Made by a program: the position numbers and the translations under genes. From positions 1 through 26,791 of the IMG/VR virus record IMGVR_UViG_3300017752_000124: a DNA stretch of 26,791 nt, one strand, 5' to 3'. Below the pieces are notes generated by a model that was given only the letters and a program-made list of their open reading frames with translations, had not been told where the DNA came from and made no database searches. Positions 8,234 through 16,027 of this stretch are shown here, piece after piece. This stretch comes from a virus. How positions within the stretch are numbered: position 1 is the stretch's first letter; each line of letters opens with the position of its first letter.

Positions 8234-8242
8234 ATCTATCTC

Positions 8243-8662
8243 CTATCGAATTGGGTTCTTAACCAGGTCATCGAATGCTGACCAAAGATCTTCAATCTCA
8301 ATCTCGTATGTATCGAGCTTGTCACCGATCCCATCTGTTACGGTTGCTGACTTCTCAACCATTGATCTCAGGTCCATCAACGTGCGTTGTTGCTCAAGGA
8401 TGTTAGTCATTTGAGTGCTGATCTGCGTGAGCTGTGTGTTGAGGCCATCGACATTGTTCTGCACAAGCGTCTGCTCTATTGCCTGTATGCGTGAGGTTGC
8501 ATCAAGAACTTCAGTTACAGATTCTTCTAGTCCATTGAACCTAGAAATCGCATCATAGCCATAGTAAATACCACCACTAAGCCCAGATAAAACAGGCAAA
8601 GCAGCAGCAATATACCAGCCTCTAAAGACAAACTTACCAGCTTTGATCTCAACGTCTTCCAT
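8243..8662 (-). CDS. Single-pass membrane protein with long coiled coil
   Basis: This 139-residue protein has an N-terminal MEDVEIKAGKFVFRGW followed by a membrane helix (about 17-37) rich in small residues and then a long coiled coil (about 40-125) with TSRIQAIEQTLVQNN and QLTQISTQMTNILEQQ. The topology suggests a periplasmic or cytoplasmic rod anchored in the inner membrane, as in an inner-membrane spanin or tail/lysis accessory. The first base of the ATG directly follows the upstream stop. It has no family that I can name. Confidence 0.7.
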   Translation of the reverse strand: MEDVEIKAGKFVFRGWYIAAALPVLSGLSGGIYYGYDAISRFNGLEESVTEVLDATSRIQAIEQTLVQNNVDGLNTQLTQISTQMTNILEQQRTLMDLRSMVEKSATVTDGIGDKLDTYEIEIEDLWSAFDDLVKNPIR

Positions 8663-9439
8663 TTACGGATTGCCATATAGATTTTGAGCATGATCGTACA
8701 ACTCGTCTGCGGTTTTATTGTTTGAGGTTGTGTATTGTGTCCAGCCTGTACCTTCACCTTGGTCACCCCAAGTAATGATGTACTCGTTAGTGTCGAATAC
8801 AAAATCAACAGATGTGTACTCGCCAATTACAATGTTATTGTCAGCCACATATGTATCAATGCTGTTAGTAAGAGCTGTGTTTTGACTTGCTGCAAAGAAC
8901 GCGCCAGAGATCTGAGCCATACTGCTGACCGCACTTAACGCCTGATTATAGTTATCAACATGATCTTGAGTAATTGTGGTGTTTGCTAGAACTTCTTGAA
9001 GCGCCAAGCCTTCTGGTCTTGTGTCAGCTGTAGCCGCCATTTCTGACACCACAGATACAGTCATCAACGCAGCACTAGCCTCTGCCAACTCGTCAACGCT
9101 CATGCCTAACTCAAGCATTGCAGAAGCATACTCAGCATCAAACAACTCAGTCGCAGTCTCAGCCTCAGAAAAGTCCATAGCCAGCACCAGATCAACGGAC
9201 GCTTGATAGTTAGCTAGCATCTCATTAGTTACGATTGCTTCATCCAAACTATTGTTAGCAATGATCTGGCCTGCGCCTGCCATGTCAGTCGCTGCGTAAG
9301 CCATCAGAGCTGCCAGCTCCACCTGTTGTTGGATCACTGTCGCTGCGTCTTGAAGGTCGCCCACTTCTGTTGTCTGTTGACCTAGTGCGCCGGAAACGCT
9401 CAGACAAAGTAGGCTTGTTACTGTTACTCGTTTGAACAT
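8663..9439 (-). CDS. Exported hypothetical protein with signal peptide
   Basis: This 258-residue protein begins MFKRVTVTSLLCLSVSGALG, a typical signal peptide (basic start, hydrophobic core, small residues at the cut site near residue 20). The mature part is very acidic and Ala-rich, probably helical (ATVIQQQVELAALMAYAATD, then ELFDAEYASAMLELG), with an aromatic C-terminal part (EYIITWGDQGEGTGW). Low lysine and high Ala/Glu give it a composition unlike its neighbours. Its start lies 155 bases inside the preceding gene. It may be a periplasmic lysis or superinfection factor; I recognise no family. Confidence 0.75.
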   Translation of the reverse strand: MFKRVTVTSLLCLSVSGALGQQTTEVGDLQDAATVIQQQVELAALMAYAATDMAGAGQIIANNSLDEAIVTNEMLANYQASVDLVLAMDFSEAETATELFDAEYASAMLELGMSVDELAEASAALMTVSVVSEMAATADTRPEGLALQEVLANTTITQDHVDNYNQALSAVSSMAQISGAFFAASQNTALTNSIDTYVADNNIVIGEYTSVDFVFDTNEYIITWGDQGEGTGWTQYTTSNNKTADELYDHAQNLYGNP

Positions 9440-10043
9440 CGGGAAGCTCCTTTATGTCCATGCGTAAAAACTTATCCCAGAAAACTTTATCTTGCAAATA
9501 CCCCACAACGTAGGTCTCTGGGTCTGCTCTCATAGACTCGTAAGCATCACGGCCTGTAAGTATCCTTGCATTTGTTACGCTGTAGATAGGGCAAGGCGTA
9601 GAAGATAAAGCCATAGCTTTAAACACATGAGGCGCTGCGCACATGATTGACAGCCCAGATATCTGAAGACCTAAGCCATGTGGTTGCGGTTGACCCATGA
9701 GCCTAGCATCCTTGCGCCTATTACATTCTGGATCTTGTTCCATGTTGCCTTGAGCAATGCCAAACAAGCTGACCTGTATGCCGCTAGTCTTTGGCATGAG
9801 ACAAGAGTCAGTGCCACCCGCGCCCATGACAGTCGGCGCAGCCGCAGTTGGTGGGGGCTGTGAACCCGGTGAGCTACCCGGCCCATTGTATGTATTTTGA
9901 TAGGTCTCGTTGGTGTTGTTGCTTTCAACGGAGCTGTTGTTGTTGCCAGTGTTGCTATTGAAGTCACCCTCAACGCTCCCATCTTGGGCATAGCATAGAG
10001 ACCCTAGCCAAATCAGGGATATGGCAACGCATCTGACTCGCAT
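9285..10043 (-). CDS. Exported hypothetical protein with Asn/Ser-rich linker
   Basis: This is a 252-residue frame with a signal peptide (MRVRCVAISLIWLGSLCYAQ), then an Asn/Ser/Thr-rich segment (NTGNNNSSVESNN), a Gly/Pro linker, and a core with several cysteines (TDSCLMPKT, PECNRRKD, SIMCAAP, TPCPIY) that could form disulfides in the periplasm. Residues about 200-252 are Arg/Ser/Gly-rich and lie over the signal-peptide coding part of the next gene, so this tail may be a by-product of the overlap and a shorter ancestral end is possible. It overlaps the upstream lipoprotein gene by 31 bases. Confidence 0.7.
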   Translation of the reverse strand: MRVRCVAISLIWLGSLCYAQDGSVEGDFNSNTGNNNSSVESNNTNETYQNTYNGPGSSPGSQPPPTAAAPTVMGAGGTDSCLMPKTSGIQVSLFGIAQGNMEQDPECNRRKDARLMGQPQPHGLGLQISGLSIMCAAPHVFKAMALSSTPCPIYSVTNARILTGRDAYESMRADPETYVVGYLQDKVFWDKFLRMDIKELPDVQTSNSNKPTLSERFRRTRSTDNRSGRPSRRSDSDPTTGGAGSSDGLRSD

Positions 10044-10249
10044 TCCACCTCCAAAACATTTCTGAGGTCAGTGTTATCACACATAACGCGAAGGCCAGCG
10101 TCAGGAAACCCCATTGCAGCCAAGGTCTCTGCGTTCTTCCTTGCCTCACAGCTTGTTTCGCTCATGCAAACAGAGGGTAGCGAGATAGGAGTTGGCATTT
10201 TTATCTCTGCGCAGCCAGCTAGAAAGATGGGGATCGTAAGCCATCTCAT
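10013..10249 (-). CDS. Small lipoprotein, possible outer-membrane spanin-like protein
   Basis: This is a 78-residue protein starting MRWLTIPIFLAGCAEI. LAGC is a lipobox, with C12 the acylated cysteine after signal peptidase II cleavage. The mature part has proline-rich PTPISLPS followed by paired cysteines. A short lipoprotein in a lysis-neighbouring cluster recalls an outer-membrane spanin (Rz1-like), and the coiled-coil protein just upstream (10246-10446) could be its partner. The overlap with the upstream gene is 4 bases. The spanin role is an inference; the lipobox is direct. Confidence 0.72.
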   Translation of the reverse strand: MRWLTIPIFLAGCAEIKMPTPISLPSVCMSETSCEARKNAETLAAMGFPDAGLRVMCDNTDLRNVLEVECESDALPYP

Positions 10250-10446
10250 CCCATCTTCGTCAGGACTGCAAGCAAGAGTGCAATGATAGAACCTGTGGTT
10301 GCAATCATGATACCTTCCATGCGCTTAACGCGGCTGAACAGATCTTTGAATTGGATCTTAACTTCAGTCTTAATAGCGATGATTTCTTTCTCAAGGCTAT
10401 CAATGCGATCATGCGCAGATGCTATTGTACGTTTGTTCATTACCAT
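10246..10446 (-). CDS. Coiled-coil protein with C-terminal membrane anchor
   Basis: This 66-residue protein has a charged coiled coil (residues about 10-48: HDRIDSLEKEIIAIKTEV, then FKDLFSRVKRMEG) followed by a C-terminal membrane helix (IMIATTGSIIALLLAVL). The plan matches XhlA-like small phage proteins, which act with holins in some phages. Two starts are possible, ATG 10446 and ATG 10440. It overlaps the lipoprotein gene by 4 bases and starts just after the halogenase stop. Confidence 0.72.
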   Translation of the reverse strand: MVMNKRTIASAHDRIDSLEKEIIAIKTEVKIQFKDLFSRVKRMEGIMIATTGSIIALLLAVLTKMG

Positions 10447-10449
10447 TCT

Positions 10450-11757
10450 CTACTCTGGTTTAGTGGGCCATATAATGTCGGTTGGAAAGTCAGACTGATC
10501 TGTGATGTCACGGAGGGCCTGACGGTATGCTGTCTGCTCTGCGGCCACCGACGAGGCTTGATTTACTCCTAGGACACCTTCGAGCTTACTGCGAATACCA
10601 AGACCATCAAGGTTCTGTGCAAAAGATGGGGACCACCACAAGTTACTCAAGTGTAGGTAGTCCATAGAAGCCTGACCACTATCCATTATTGTTTGCGGTG
10701 CTGATCCAAATGCGCCTGCGGGGTAAGCGTGTTTTATCATGTCACAAAAAGCAGGGTCATACTTACCACTTTCCATGCAAAGCTCCCCACGTTCTTTTGC
10801 ATAATCCCAGAAGGGTGTGTTGTATTTAGACCCAGCAAAGTAGTGCATCATGATTATGCGTTCTACGTTTCTTACCAAACCTACATATTCCATGTTGGCC
10901 TGTTCTACAGGCACAAGACCCTGAAGGTAGTTAATTGCGTTGTCTATAACAGTGCTGGCCATACCAAAAGACATAGCTTCCAGAGGCTCTAAGAAGAATG
11001 ACGCATTACCATTGCTCGCTACTCTATCCGTAAAGTTACGGTTCTTTGAGTAGTTGTTGAAGCCAAACGAGTTAGTCTCTTCGCTTGGGGTCAAATCAAA
11101 GTCACTAAAGATTGCCTTGACGTCTTCTTTTACTTCTTCAAGGGTGTTGATGTCACTGTTATACAGATACCCAATGGAACATCTGTTTTGGAGGGGTATT
11201 CCAAAGACCCAACCATATGGGCGAGCAATTGTAAGCGTGTGAGAAAACTTGGGAGCGTCCCAGTAACACTGGTTAACGTGAACAGCGTTGACAGGGATGT
11301 AAGCAGACTGCGAGTGCTTACTGTAATCCTTGGGGCGACCAGAACAGTCAATGATGTAATCAGCATCAATGTCATCTGGTTTTACATTATGTTCAAACAA
11401 GTCAACATGATCTTTTAGTCTTCCATACACGTAGTCCTGCATCTTGTTTGCGTTAAAGTGCAAGGCCACTGTTGGTGAGGGAAACTCATGGAGAAACTCT
11501 TCTTCAGTGGCAGACCAACCCCGCTTGAAGATACCCGTTTTTACGTAGCCATCCACAAGATCAAAGTCTTTGGGACCAAACCCTAGGGTTCGATGCAGAA
11601 GGGAAGGGAGCACGAGAGTTGTCCCCTCGCCTACCGCCTGCGGTTTAATGTTAGGATCGTAGTGCCACTCAACTTTTGCTTCTGGAAAGCTAAGTTTCAT
11701 TTGCACCGCCGACATGCACCCAACAGTTCCACGACCTATGACCGCGTACTTCTTCAC
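10450..11757 (-). CDS. Flavin-dependent tryptophan-halogenase-like enzyme with tail-assembly-like C-terminus
   Basis: This is a 435-residue protein. FAD-binding motif GRGTVG at residues 8-13; AVGEGT (41-46) corresponds to the GEAT region; YVKTGIFKRGW (71-81) places K73 where halogenases carry the catalytic lysine; GWVFGIP (182-188) is the family WxWxIP motif with Phe in place of the second Trp; PLEAMSFG (258-265) supplies E260, the conserved glutamate. Flavin halogenases use FADH2, oxygen and halide to make hypohalous acid near the lysine. A cyanophage enzyme of this group (VirX1) has been shown to iodinate diverse substrates. Here residues 411-434 (from YRQALRDIT to FPTDIIWPTKP) match the C-terminus of the neighbouring tail-fibre assembly protein. 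It overlaps that gene by 4 bases. The usual partner reductase is not in the window. Confidence 0.9.
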   Translation of the reverse strand: MKKYAVIGRGTVGCMSAVQMKLSFPEAKVEWHYDPNIKPQAVGEGTTLVLPSLLHRTLGFGPKDFDLVDGYVKTGIFKRGWSATEEEFLHEFPSPTVALHFNANKMQDYVYGRLKDHVDLFEHNVKPDDIDADYIIDCSGRPKDYSKHSQSAYIPVNAVHVNQCYWDAPKFSHTLTIARPYGWVFGIPLQNRCSIGYLYNSDINTLEEVKEDVKAIFSDFDLTPSEETNSFGFNNYSKNRNFTDRVASNGNASFFLEPLEAMSFGMASTVIDNAINYLQGLVPVEQANMEYVGLVRNVERIIMMHYFAGSKYNTPFWDYAKERGELCMESGKYDPAFCDMIKHAYPAGAFGSAPQTIMDSGQASMDYLHLSNLWWSPSFAQNLDGLGIRSKLEGVLGVNQASSVAAEQTAYRQALRDITDQSDFPTDIIWPTKPE

Positions 11758-12194
11758 GACATGTCCAAAACAGAAGGAAGCGTTGGCCAGACCACAGAAG
11801 TTGGGAACGTAGCTTGAGCCGTAATATCCAACAAATCTGTTCGGTACTGTGTGACTTCCGTTTGTTCATCAGAAGTTAACCCACTCCATCGCATAGGATT
11901 TGAAACCACAGGGTCAACAAACGCCCGTAATTGGCTGGCTCTTAAAAGCCTAATTTCAGCAGCGTTAGCAGCATCTATTTCCGCCTGAGTGGGGGGTGTT
12001 GGGGCAATGTATGCCCCAATCGCACCGTCTGCCTGCATCTGGGCAAGCAGTACAGTGTTGTCGATAGTCATGTCGGCGTCATTTACATCTAGGGTATACG
12101 GCGTCCAACCTTCATACTCAGGCAGATTAAGAAAGCAGTCAATACGATTGCCTGTGTCGTCAATATAAACCGCGTCTTTGTAAACATATGTCAT
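11754..12194 (-). CDS. Tail-fibre assembly chaperone-like protein
   Basis: ATG 12194 shares a base with the preceding TAA and has GAGGT upstream, giving 146 residues. The N-terminus (MTYVYKDAVYIDDTGNRID) and the middle helix with AEIDAANAAEIRLLRASQLR lead to SNPMRWSGLTSDEQTEV and a C-terminal YRTDLLDIT with FPTSVVWPTLP. This ending is characteristic of phage tail-fibre assembly chaperones (Phage_tail_APC-like), which bind the fibre and either assist folding or remain at the tip. It lies between the fibre genes and the halogenase, and its C-terminus matches the halogenase C-terminus. Confidence 0.82.
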   Translation of the reverse strand: MTYVYKDAVYIDDTGNRIDCFLNLPEYEGWTPYTLDVNDADMTIDNTVLLAQMQADGAIGAYIAPTPPTQAEIDAANAAEIRLLRASQLRAFVDPVVSNPMRWSGLTSDEQTEVTQYRTDLLDITAQATFPTSVVWPTLPSVLDMS

Positions 12195-12664
12195 TAAGAG
12201 TACCTCACCCAAAGACCGGGAAATGATGGACCCCAGTTTGCACTAGCTTCAGGCGGGTTTCTCATTGCTGGAGTCATTAACCGCCAACTTCCCGAATAAG
12301 TCTGGTCACTTTGTAGGGAGGTATTGCTCGCAAAGCTGTTGTTCTGACTAGCAGTCAGACCTGTCGTACCAGAGGTAGAGGTTGTTTGGTTTGTAATAGC
12401 TACCGCTCCCCCCTCTATGCCACGGGATTCTAAATTGCTACCTGCGGTAGTCCTACCCTCTTTATAGCCTACCCCTTGAGTATTTGATTGCGAAGTGTCA
12501 TGTGCAACGGTGTACGTTCCCACTCCGTTGACGGCTGTACTAGCTCCAGTGGAAATATCTCCGCTTCCAAGAATGGAATTACCACCTACCGTCTTTAAAC
12601 CGCCTACATTCTGTAAGTTTCTGCTGTCATCAATAACGGTTGTACCGCTTACTTGAATAGCCAT
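12194..12664 (-). CDS. Fibre accessory / tip protein, 156 aa
   Basis: The start MAIQVSGTTVIDDSRNLQNV is a recurrent opening of phage tail-fibre-associated proteins in marine phages, followed by GNSILGSGDIS, Gly/Ser/Thr-rich beta-type sequence and an aromatic C-terminus (SANWGPSFPGLWVRYS). It is likely a fibre tip, adhesin or structural spacer next to the large fibre. The TAATG overlap with the assembly gene indicates coupled expression. There is no clear enzymatic motif. Confidence 0.72.
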   Translation of the reverse strand: MAIQVSGTTVIDDSRNLQNVGGLKTVGGNSILGSGDISTGASTAVNGVGTYTVAHDTSQSNTQGVGYKEGRTTAGSNLESRGIEGGAVAITNQTTSTSGTTGLTASQNNSFASNTSLQSDQTYSGSWRLMTPAMRNPPEASANWGPSFPGLWVRYS

Positions 12665-12682
12665 CTTCGTGTCCTTCCACTA

Positions 12683-15600
12683 TTAGCTGTTAAGTTGTGC
12701 TTTAAGTTCATCAATCTGAACCTGTTGTTCTTTGATTGCTTCGATAAGCACAGCGACCATGTTGCTATACTTGACCGACTTGATGCCTTCGTCATTGGTG
12801 CTGACTACATCCGGCAGTACAGCTTCTACTTCCTGAGCAATGACACCTATCTCTGAGCCGCCGTTCTCTAGCCAATCGAATGAGACACCACGCATTGCTT
12901 TCACTGCATCCAGTGAGCCTGTGAGCGTCTCTACGTTGGTCTTGAGTGTGGCGTCTGAAGTGGTGTTGAAATTGGTTGCAGTCGCATCACCTGTGACTGT
13001 AATTCCGCTGCTATTTGTTGAGAGACGGGCGATATTATCGTAGTAAAGGTCTACTGAGCCATTGTCATTAAAAACAGCAAAGGTCTCGTTATTACCAACG
13101 TCTGTAAATTTAACGAAACTATCTGACTGCACGAAAAGTGGACCTTCATCATTTCTAATGATTGAGTCGTTCCCAGCTACTTCTAGGTCTAATTTTGAGC
13201 TTACTGTGATTCCGCTGGCGGTGGTTTGGAGTTTTTGGGTTCCATTATGATAAAGATAGAGCGAGCCACCTTCTATCCCATAAAGAAACGCAGCGTTGGT
13301 ATCTGCCGCTCCTACTACCTCAAAATTACCCGCACTTATTTTTAAGTTACCAGTGCCTGTATCTTTTATCCAACTATGACTCGCATCGTGATAAATCTGT
13401 AGGTCATCAGATGCCCCAAATGTAGCTTTCTGACTATCACCTAAAGCAATCCCGTCTGTGGTAATTTCACCAGTGATGTCTACACCTGTGCTAGTAGTTT
13501 GAAATTTTTGGACATTATCATGCCTAAGTGATACTGATCCATCGGTTGTAAATACAGCTTTAGTTTCACTTCTAATTGCATTTTGAATGTAAAGTTGGTC
13601 TGCCGCTATAACTAAACTTCCACTACCATTTTCTGTAATATATGAGTTATTATCACTACTGCTATGATAAATCTGTAGGTCAGATCCAGCTCCGAACACA
13701 GCCTTATCATTGTCACCAAAGTTAATGTCAGCAGAGGTAGTCATGCCGTCTGTGGTAATAACACCAGTTACATCTACACCTGTGCTGGTTGTAGTCAGCT
13801 TCTCAGAATTAGCATGGCGTATGCTTACCGCCCCACCGGAGTTAGCAAGAAGATAAGTGTTCGTGCCGCCTTGGTCTTGTAACCGCAACTCAGATGCACG
13901 AACAAAAAGCCAACCGCCAGCGGAAGCATCATCAATATAGCTATGCGTTCCATCATGGTAAATCTGCAGGTCAGACCCAGCGCCGAAGATGGCTTTGTCG
14001 TTGTCACCGAAGGACAAATCACCCGTCATGCTATCGCCAGTGACTGCAACAAAGTCTGTAGCTGCGGCGGTGGCTGCTGTTCCTAAGTCACCCGGCTGTG
14101 TAGCTGAGGCAGCGAGTGCGCCTTGGGCTGCTGTGGCATAGTCAGTCGAGGCTGTAGTGGCTGCTGTTCCAAGCCCAAGGTTTGTCCTTGAGCCAGCGGC
14201 GTCAGCAACGTCCGAAAGATTGTTATTAACCAAGAGAGCGCCTGAGAGGGAAGCGTAGGCAGCAACCCACTGGCTACCCTCATAGACTTTCATAACATCG
14301 TCTGTGGTATTGAAGTAAAGCGCCCCGGAAACCAATGCGTTACCGTCATTATCTACTGTAGGATCGGACGCCTTGGCACCCAAATACCTGTCATCAAAGC
14401 TATCAAGGGCAGCAAGCGCCGCATCCTTTGCGGCTTCAGATGCCGTGGCGGAGTTTGCACTAGCCGTGGCCGATGCAGCCGCCTCGCCAGCCTTGGTTAT
14501 CGCAGTGCCAGCGTCAGTGGATGCAGATGCAGCCGAGGAGGCTGCGTTGGTTTGGCTTGTCAAAGCATTAGATGCGCTTGTAGATGCAGAAGATGCACTA
14601 GCAGCGGCGTTGGTCTCAGAGGTTTCGGAATTAGTCTCTGCGGTTTCGGCAGCAGCCTGCGCAGCAACACTAGCCACGCGGGAAGTTTCACTAGCTGTGG
14701 CGCTGTTCGAGCTATTAGCGGCGCTGTTGGCAGAATTGGTTTCGCTGGTAGATGCAGCCCCCTCACTGGCTAAGGCAGCAGCAGCACTTGCAGCAGCCTC
14801 GCCAGCCTTGGTTGTTGCAATGCCAGCCTGCGTGATGGCTGTGGACGCACTTGTTGATGCGTTAGTCTCAGCGGTTTCCGCTGCCACTTTTGCGGCTTCA
14901 GAAGCAGTCTTTGCTGTTTCGCTTGCGGCCTGCGCTGTTTCGGCATTGGTCTCCGCAGTTTCAGCAGCGGCCTGGGCGGCAACAGAAGCAACCTTAGATG
15001 TTTCACTAGATGTGGCGCTGTTGGCGCTATTGGTGGCGCTGGTAGCGGCGGCGTTCTTACTCGCCAAAGCAGATGCAGCATTCGTGCTCGCGTTTTGAAT
15101 GTCAGTAATATTGGTTGCGTTTGTATTGATGGATGCAATGTTTGTTGCGTTTGTGTTTACATTGGAAATATCTGTAGCAACAGTATTTACGCTTGCAATA
15201 GATGTCGCAACAGTCCCGATATCAGCACCATCAGCAGCGACAGTATTGATATTAGCCTGATTACTTGCAACAGATGTTACATTTGCGCTTATACTAGAAA
15301 CAGTCGTAACGTCTGAGGATATACCAGCAACCGTGCCGATGTCAGATCCGTCCGCAGCAACAGTCGTAACGTCTGAGCTAATACCGGCAACCGTAGTTAC
15401 ATTGCCAGAGATACCGGAAACAGTGGTGACATTTGCGCGGATCGTGTTGACGTTTGTAATCGCGTCAGTTGCAACCGTACCATCCTGGATCTCTGCCAGC
15501 GTCTTAATATCAGCAGAGATATTTGCTAGTGAATCGACATCCCCGATCTCTGGACCTGGTTCTGGATCGCCTGTGGTTGCGTTGAAGCCAAGAACCGTCC

Positions 15601-16027
15601 CCTTACGAGCGTCCTTGAGTGGTAGCTCTAGGTCAGTAAACACATCGCCAGGGTTTACAAACAAGCCACGACCAAGCTTCTCGTCAAGCTGTTGGGTCAT
15701 AATCACGTTACTGTCTAGCTGTTCATTCAAGCTGGAAGCGAGAAGATCACCGGCTGTAACAAAGTCTGTGGTGCGGGAAAGCTCACGGCCACCAATGATT
15801 GTAAGAACGTCTGACGCTACGAGGGCGGCTGTAAGAGTAATAGACCCTGTGCCATTTGCATTAATACTGACCGTATAATCGGTTGTCAGCGTCAACTCAG
15901 TCGTATTCTTGAAGACAGCGATATCACTATCTGTCAGGATGTTGAAAGTAAAGGCAAACGGGCCTGTTCCAGTATTACCTGTGAACTGAACGCGCCGCGT
16001 TACTGGATTGATTGCAATATCACTCAT
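12683..16027 (-). CDS. Long tail fibre with self-cleaving S74 chaperone domain
   Basis: This is an 1114-residue protein. Residues 1-145 resemble the T7 gp17 N-terminus that attaches fibres to the tail (RRVQFTGNTGTGPFAFTF, then GRELSRTTDF). Residues about 191-310 are twelve decapeptide repeats. Residues about 311-540 are an Ala/Ser/Thr-rich helical rod with repeated SVAAQAAAETAETN. Residues about 543-595 contain FDDRYLGAKASDPT and ALYFNTTDDVMKVYEG. Residues about 665-1020 carry four-fold FGAGSDLQIYH-type beta repeats. The last 91 residues (TSDATLK at about 1023) match the intramolecular chaperone (peptidase S74) with S1024 and K1029 as the self-cleavage pair. It should trimerise and bind the host receptor. 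A candidate promoter sits upstream. Confidence 0.9.
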   Translation of the reverse strand: MSDIAINPVTRRVQFTGNTGTGPFAFTFNILTDSDIAVFKNTTELTLTTDYTVSINANGTGSITLTAALVASDVLTIIGGRELSRTTDFVTAGDLLASSLNEQLDSNVIMTQQLDEKLGRGLFVNPGDVFTDLELPLKDARKGTVLGFNATTGDPEPGPEIGDVDSLANISADIKTLAEIQDGTVATDAITNVNTIRANVTTVSGISGNVTTVAGISSDVTTVAADGSDIGTVAGISSDVTTVSSISANVTSVASNQANINTVAADGADIGTVATSIASVNTVATDISNVNTNATNIASINTNATNITDIQNASTNAASALASKNAAATSATNSANSATSSETSKVASVAAQAAAETAETNAETAQAASETAKTASEAAKVAAETAETNASTSASTAITQAGIATTKAGEAAASAAAALASEGAASTSETNSANSAANSSNSATASETSRVASVAAQAAAETAETNSETSETNAAASASSASTSASNALTSQTNAASSAASASTDAGTAITKAGEAAASATASANSATASEAAKDAALAALDSFDDRYLGAKASDPTVDNDGNALVSGALYFNTTDDVMKVYEGSQWVAAYASLSGALLVNNNLSDVADAAGSRTNLGLGTAATTASTDYATAAQGALAASATQPGDLGTAATAAATDFVAVTGDSMTGDLSFGDNDKAIFGAGSDLQIYHDGTHSYIDDASAGGWLFVRASELRLQDQGGTNTYLLANSGGAVSIRHANSEKLTTTSTGVDVTGVITTDGMTTSADINFGDNDKAVFGAGSDLQIYHSSSDNNSYITENGSGSLVIAADQLYIQNAIRSETKAVFTTDGSVSLRHDNVQKFQTTSTGVDITGEITTDGIALGDSQKATFGASDDLQIYHDASHSWIKDTGTGNLKISAGNFEVVGAADTNAAFLYGIEGGSLYLYHNGTQKLQTTASGITVSSKLDLEVAGNDSIIRNDEGPLFVQSDSFVKFTDVGNNETFAVFNDNGSVDLYYDNIARLSTNSSGITVTGDATATNFNTTSDATLKTNVETLTGSLDAVKAMRGVSFDWLENGGSEIGVIAQEVEAVLPDVVSTNDEGIKSVKYSNMVAVLIEAIKEQQVQIDELKAQLNS
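15098..15457 (-). repeat. Decapeptide (30-bp) repeat array in the fibre gene
   Basis: Twelve ten-residue units follow with almost no gap, each ending in V or I after N/D (for example TTVAGISSDV, TTVSSISANV, NTVATDISNV). Identical 17-base stretches at 15301-15317 and 15361-15377 are 60 bases apart, that is two units. The array encodes a regular rod part of the fibre. Confidence 0.8.

Follow-up and report, generated by a model that had tools for sequence, protein, structure and literature searches.

Why does the halogenase of a marine phage end in a segment shared with a neighbouring tail-fibre assembly chaperone, and does this ending bring the enzyme to the phage tail? The window, that is, the whole stretch of DNA analysed, is an IMG/VR virus record of 26,791 bases, perhaps a fragment. 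Its halogenase ORF (10450-11757, minus strand, 435 aa, GTG start) consists of a native flavin-dependent halogenase part, residues 1-407 (10537-11757, minus strand), and a C-terminal tail of chaperone origin, residues 408-435 with the stop (10450-10536, minus strand), in which the added codons occupy 10453-10536 and the stop codon 10450-10452. Directly upstream, on the same strand, lies the chaperone gene (11754-12194; ATG at 12194, with an alternative TTG at 12212 giving an ORF of 11754-12212), assigned by PF16778 and by a PHROG match to tail fiber assembly, whose stop overlaps the halogenase GTG start by 4 bases. It is preceded by a small protein of 156 aa (12194-12664, minus strand), which gave no Pfam and no PHROG match, so that its label as a putative tail tip comes from place and sequence, and by a tail fibre gene (12683-16027, minus strand) matching tail-fibre PHROGs and carrying a Peptidase_S74 intramolecular chaperone (PF13884, 12803-12958). 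On the other side of the halogenase, the right flank (8240-10449, minus strand) holds the ORFs 10246-10446, 10013-10249, 9285-10043, 8663-9439 and 8243-8662. Two long ORFs among these, 9285-10043 and 8663-9439, have 155 bases in common that are read in different frames; relatives of both were present in 19 of 21 right-flank loci. Elsewhere in the window, two minus-strand ORFs (911-1519 and 2043-2732) each match phage replication-initiation families.

The halogenase and the shared C-terminal motif

Halogenase residues 411-434 (YRQALRDITDQSDFPTDIIWPTKP) and chaperone residues 117-140 (ATG numbering; 123-146 from the TTG) are identical at 14 of 24 positions, which confirms the count given in the preliminary description of this DNA. 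The BLOSUM62 local score of this pair is 89, a value reached by 0/1000 shuffles of the halogenase, the best of which attain at most 52. Searched against Phage_tail_APC (PF16778, cut-off 26.6 bits), halogenase residues 404-435 scored 35.2 bits over profile positions 29-60 of 60, and chaperone residues 85-146 scored 33.2 bits over positions 2-59 of 60. Because the shuffles fall short and both segments independently exceed the Pfam cut-off, the two endings are homologous and chance is untenable as an explanation. The span first quoted for the pair, 10456-11846, was slightly loose: the tail is 10453-10536 and the matching segment of the neighbour is 11775-11960. The halogenase tail corresponds to the second half of the Phage_tail_APC domain only; a complete domain with its R..R first half was not found in it, and R82 and R85, which lie in this missing half, are invariant across 34 aligned chaperones.

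The body of the enzyme belongs to the PF04820 family (1e-26; 94.3 bits, above the curated cut-off of 21). In an alignment of 52 rows, G8, G10 and G13 of GxGxxG, the dinucleotide-binding motif of flavin-dependent halogenases, are invariant, as are K73 and E260, which align with the Lys and Glu of solved members, the catalytic pair that we take to be K79 and E346 in PrnA. The motif WxWxIP, also typical of flavin-dependent halogenases, was not found in the window enzyme, which has W183-V-F-G-I-P at this place, and the second W is replaced by F in at least 90% of the 52 rows; since the motif reads WVFGIP, "halogenase" is used here as a family name and the activity is provisional. The predicted structure has the fold of flavin-dependent halogenases, with SttH as the best match (Z 35.5, rmsd 3.3, 362 aligned residues) and a Foldseek value of 5.8e-22 for PyrH. 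With the window enzyme as query, 64 of 50,697 phage records matched, the highest identity being 45.7% (S-RIM4, outside the clade described below). In a cellular search, 90 genome stretches fitted our patterns and one encoded a relative (Actinomadura, 24%), a result to be read with the fact that patterns drawn from viral enzymes detect close relatives only. For the chaperone, the AlphaFold2 model has a mean pLDDT of 93.8, and comparison with known folds gave no match at E <=0.001; the nearest protein was CV0426 (2kz6; Foldseek E 0.65, 31% identity; phmmer E 0.45).

Origin of the tail

We then asked where the ending comes from. Twenty close halogenase relatives were found in viral contigs, and across 83 loci we collected 88 halogenase ORFs, 87 of them with a complete 3' end; the tail is present in 0/87, the best short match being one inside a protein (L085, E 0.089). 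That the tail belongs to halogenases in general is thereby ruled out, and the earlier view that the ending is of the tail-fibre-chaperone type and not native to such enzymes holds. The nearest relatives (L004-L007, 98.8-99.3% identical, with L004 at 99.3% to the native part) stop at residue 406/407, where the tail begins. Scanning for the tail in other proteins covered 77 loci (72 of the 80 kept from 295 relatives, plus 5 from an exact-match search) and returned 92 ORFs, all of 58-160 aa. Two of these rows are one fused contig (89 aa seen), while the other 90 resemble small chaperones, an assignment made by likeness in a scan that could miss longer proteins or more diverged tails. A search for other phage enzymes with the same tail, which the preliminary description had recommended, thus returned none among the 92 ORFs beyond the fused halogenase. 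In four isolate phages the motif lies on annotated proteins of 106-145 aa. Several phage stretches (L135, L136, L138, L193, L242 and L243) carry 2-3 chaperone-like genes each.

Comparison of the DNA located the source. From 10537 to 12765 the window is 96.9% identical to L004, from 8240 to 10497 it is 96.8% identical to L024, in which no halogenase was found, and from 10245 to 10550 it is 95.4% identical to L192. At the tail site L192 has an 89-aa chaperone-like gene, and L024 likewise has an ordinary chaperone with the same motif ending. A copy of the neighbouring chaperone is excluded as the origin, as the DNA of the tail corresponds to the way in which the chaperone genes of L192 and L024 end; the neighbour's own ending reads WPTLPSVLDMS. 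The two parts meet at CCGCAGAG (10537-10544, minus strand), eight bases common, in frame, to the native halogenase end and to chaperone genes of relatives: the native halogenase end of L004 has GGCCGCAGAGTGA, and GACCGCAGAGCAGACAG is found in the chaperone genes of L168, L170, L180 and L190-L192. The chaperone of L024 lacks the CCGCAGAG joint. The left exchange point falls within the 3' end of the fibre gene, past the S74 domain, where L004 matches up to 12765 and the halogenase-free L192 and L024 match 12693-12979. Among 20 relatives of the right flank, a chaperone-like gene lies just upstream of the flank in 6, and other genes occupy this place in the rest, which counts against a resident chaperone as the general content of the site.

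By these sequence comparisons the window is a mosaic, L004-like from about 12765 to 10537, whereas both its right flank and the final 28 codons of the halogenase gene are those of phages with an ordinary chaperone gene at this site. Because the parts meet at an in-frame identity of 8 bases, the halogenase has lost its stop and has the last 28 codons of a chaperone as its C-terminus. An exchangeable tail-tip cassette (fibre end, tip, chaperone and halogenase) would have been swapped in beside a resident chaperone gene, and a crossover at the 8-base identity would have left the ending of the resident chaperone on the enzyme. The domain transplant proposed earlier stands in so far as the segment is foreign and was gained by recombination; what was gained is a half domain, and it did not come from the neighbouring chaperone.

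Searching for an exact match of 24 bases gave five contigs, of which four have a small chaperone-like gene and one (L169/L173) a further fused halogenase. The latter has the same joint on another backbone, which from base 172 on is 97.6-98.0% identical over 5113 bp to L191 and L180, where small ordinary chaperone ORFs lie at that place. Between the two fused genes there are 0/182 mismatches before the joint and 8/90 in the tail. Since they agree before the joint and differ in tail and backbone, a single fusion may have spread and had its tail replaced by local alleles, or else this joint was formed on two occasions. In L005-L007 a different joint in the chaperone end is off frame and leads to a stop at residue 406; the 3' end of the chaperone gene has thus acted repeatedly as an exchange point, and the enzyme does not need a tail in frame. 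An artefact of assembly has to be weighed since these are metagenome contigs and L173 is cut by its contig end inside the halogenase; we judge it very improbable, as the overlaps used in assembly are usually longer than the 8 bases that the two parts have in common at the joint, and the same joint recurs in two contigs with different backbones.

What the tail does is a separate matter. The preliminary description proposed a functional module by which the halogenase could dock to the fibre or to the partner of the chaperone, and two observations would fit: the tail is intact, in frame and motif-keeping in two contigs whose tail alleles differ, and the halogenase gene overlaps the chaperone gene. 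An open, motif-like tail in both contigs that bear it also speaks against a mere scar and could be explained by selection, with n=2 contigs. Against docking, the tail is absent from all related ORFs with a complete end, it lacks the first domain half with the invariant R82 and R85, nearly identical enzymes of the L004 type manage without it, and L005-L007 keep an off-frame chaperone remnant behind their stop. In AlphaFold2 models, most of the enzyme body is predicted with high confidence, residues 401-435 have block means of 37-54, and chaperone residues 111-140, which include the motif, reach 97-98; this difference is weak evidence, as the tail is covered by a single row of the halogenase alignment, the first, and such thin coverage is enough to depress confidence. 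Docking by the tail, possible but unsupported by these models and comparisons, is in our judgement improbable. We consider a recombination scar the simplest and most likely reading, and the tail is probably the trace of a cassette swap with no required role.

Linkage to the tail-fibre chaperone and possible role of the enzyme

Gene order bears on the enzyme independently of the tail. Patterns built on the halogenase alone brought 198 relatives, from which we retained 80. Among the 83 loci, 78 have an upstream gene that could be assigned, and the gene directly upstream is a member of a chaperone family in 42/78 and another gene in 36/78. Taking longest-ORF starts, the chaperone gene runs into the halogenase gene in 41 of the 42, the remaining locus (L016) having a 20-base gap. 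The chaperones form two sequence families: the window type (14 loci), in which PF16778 is over the cut-off in 14/14 records, and a second family (28 loci), in which 3/3 representatives tested are over it and the others were assigned by clustering. A quick tree was built from 62 of 85 enzymes (near-copies dropped) together with the window enzyme trimmed to 407 residues; it has 2 unlabelled rows and very long, uncertainly placed rows for L080 and L090, and it leaves out the phages whose halogenase lies by gp33, by metabolic genes or by the major head protein. On it, the 24 chaperone-linked representatives and the window enzyme make up one side of a single branch (SH-aLRT 99), together with L085, which has no upstream gene, and linkage requires 1 change compared with a shuffled mean of 19.4. 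With the chaperone directly upstream in so many loci and the linked representatives in one clade, a tie between the halogenase and tail genes is supported.

The order fibre, tip, chaperone, halogenase is kept in 14/14 window-type loci with several different right flanks. In the 28 loci of the second type, a long gene stands before the chaperone, glycine-rich (f3) or fibre (f32) in 24 and unclassified in 2 (L064 and L068), while L061 and L067 reach no further; the genes after the halogenase vary widely in both cassette types. The C-terminal domain of the 156-aa protein occurs in 14 contigs, the same 14 that have the halogenase, a count biased upward because the patterns were drawn from halogenase-linked tips. 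Several further features were seen among these loci. The glycine-rich genes before chaperone and halogenase (L053:3775-5676 and similar genes of L045-L077) include one tested copy with PF01391 collagen repeats. A putative terminase-large-like gene of 511 aa directly follows the halogenase in L015 (from 986), L016 (from 7224) and L022 (from 666). Outside the chaperone-linked clade, phages L079, L081, L094 and L101 carry neighbouring halogenase-family copies.

The earlier suggestion of an enzyme of tail assembly is retained for a different reason: gene order and clade point to it, and the transplanted tail does not. The enzyme would work in the tip module and be translated along with the chaperone, and its likely target would be an aromatic residue of the folding tip or fibre, or a ligand bound there. 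Selection was compared in six pairs of L010, L011, L013 and L014. The halogenase has dN/dS of 0.08-0.14, indicating that the enzyme is under strong purifying selection, the chaperone 0.24-0.49, and the tip 0.38-0.57, where three of six pairs have dS of 1.14-1.26 and are unsure. As the tip evolves fast and the enzyme does not, an enzyme reading the variable tip surface fits poorly, and a conserved target would be needed; an invariant Tyr and two Trp in 9 aligned tips are our guess at candidates. Since family members acting on peptides and proteins exist, a protein substrate in the tip module is plausible, and we put it forward tentatively.

The linkage could also be hitch-hiking. The halogenase would then ride with an exchanged tip cassette as an auxiliary metabolic enzyme whose substrate is a small molecule, as might be expected from those more distant phage halogenases examined, which lie beside gp33, metabolic genes and the major head protein, or beside gp59 and gp32, a carbamoyltransferase, NUDIX and a 2OG oxygenase. 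In a scan for the chaperone, moreover, 33/47 related loci have no halogenase within the stretch fetched, so that the enzyme is an optional addition to the cassette, kept in its own clade. This alternative is rather unlikely to our mind: linkage holds in 42/42 testable clade loci, over two chaperone families and several right flanks, which is above the expectation for loose riding, and even the more distant S-RIM4 halogenase has an annotated tail fibre gene within about 3.3 kb, without adjoining it. The most far-reaching version of a tip role, in which the clade is a tip maturation enzyme, co-made with the chaperone, that adds a halogen to some conserved aromatic residue in the receptor-binding tip and is brought to its substrate by the fused ending, is more doubtful still; if true, it would mean a halogenated virion protein on the phage tail tip. 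The account as a whole, a cassette-swap mosaic with a scar tail and an enzyme working in the tip module, is the one that we moderately favour. For phage halogenases, the chaperone-locked clade offers a concrete place to seek a substrate, the virion tip.

Comparison with known halogenases and host-recognition modules

A halogenase tied to tail fibres was not found among the literature matches listed, in a search that left subscription literature mostly uncovered, and halogenase, tail assembly chaperone and phage did not occur together in it. Among solved enzymes, PrnA, PyrH, RebH and SttH (PF04820) share with the window enzyme the family, the positions of the catalytic Lys and Glu and the fold. 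Unlike the PrnA type, the window enzyme has about 407 residues instead of the 476-535 of solved chains and WVFGIP in place of WxWxIP, is encoded in a phage tail-tip cassette and bears the extra chaperone tail. VirX1 (6qgm), a marine viral halogenase with a 531-residue chain that reportedly performs iodination, has the same fold but is only distantly related (E 9e-22 for its sequence against profile A5, and Z 27.3 for the fold). The same fold is also found in MibH (5uao), a lanthipeptide tryptophan halogenase, and RiPP brominases act on peptide tryptophan, a precedent for modifying ribosomal peptides or proteins (PMC10286304, PMC10858898); MibH and these brominases are biosynthetic, with no phage or tail context in the parts of the sources consulted. 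Earlier work has counted phage halogenases among auxiliary metabolic genes (PMC10452541).

On the side of the tail, the PF16778 chaperones have the same C-terminal motif in small ORFs of 58-160 aa, and the halogenase holds only positions 29-60 of 60 of their profile. The closest counterpart to the exchange is provided by the Alteromonas phages A5 and V22, where, according to the study, a fibre and its chaperone are shared by distantly related marine phages as part of an exchangeable host-recognition module, which is put down to transfer and recombination (PMC10579305); its main text contains the word "halogenase" 0 times. The joint in our window would record the swap of a host-recognition cassette, with the 3' end of the chaperone gene as the exchange point, and suggests that a swap of this kind can leave an enzyme fused to the end of a chaperone.
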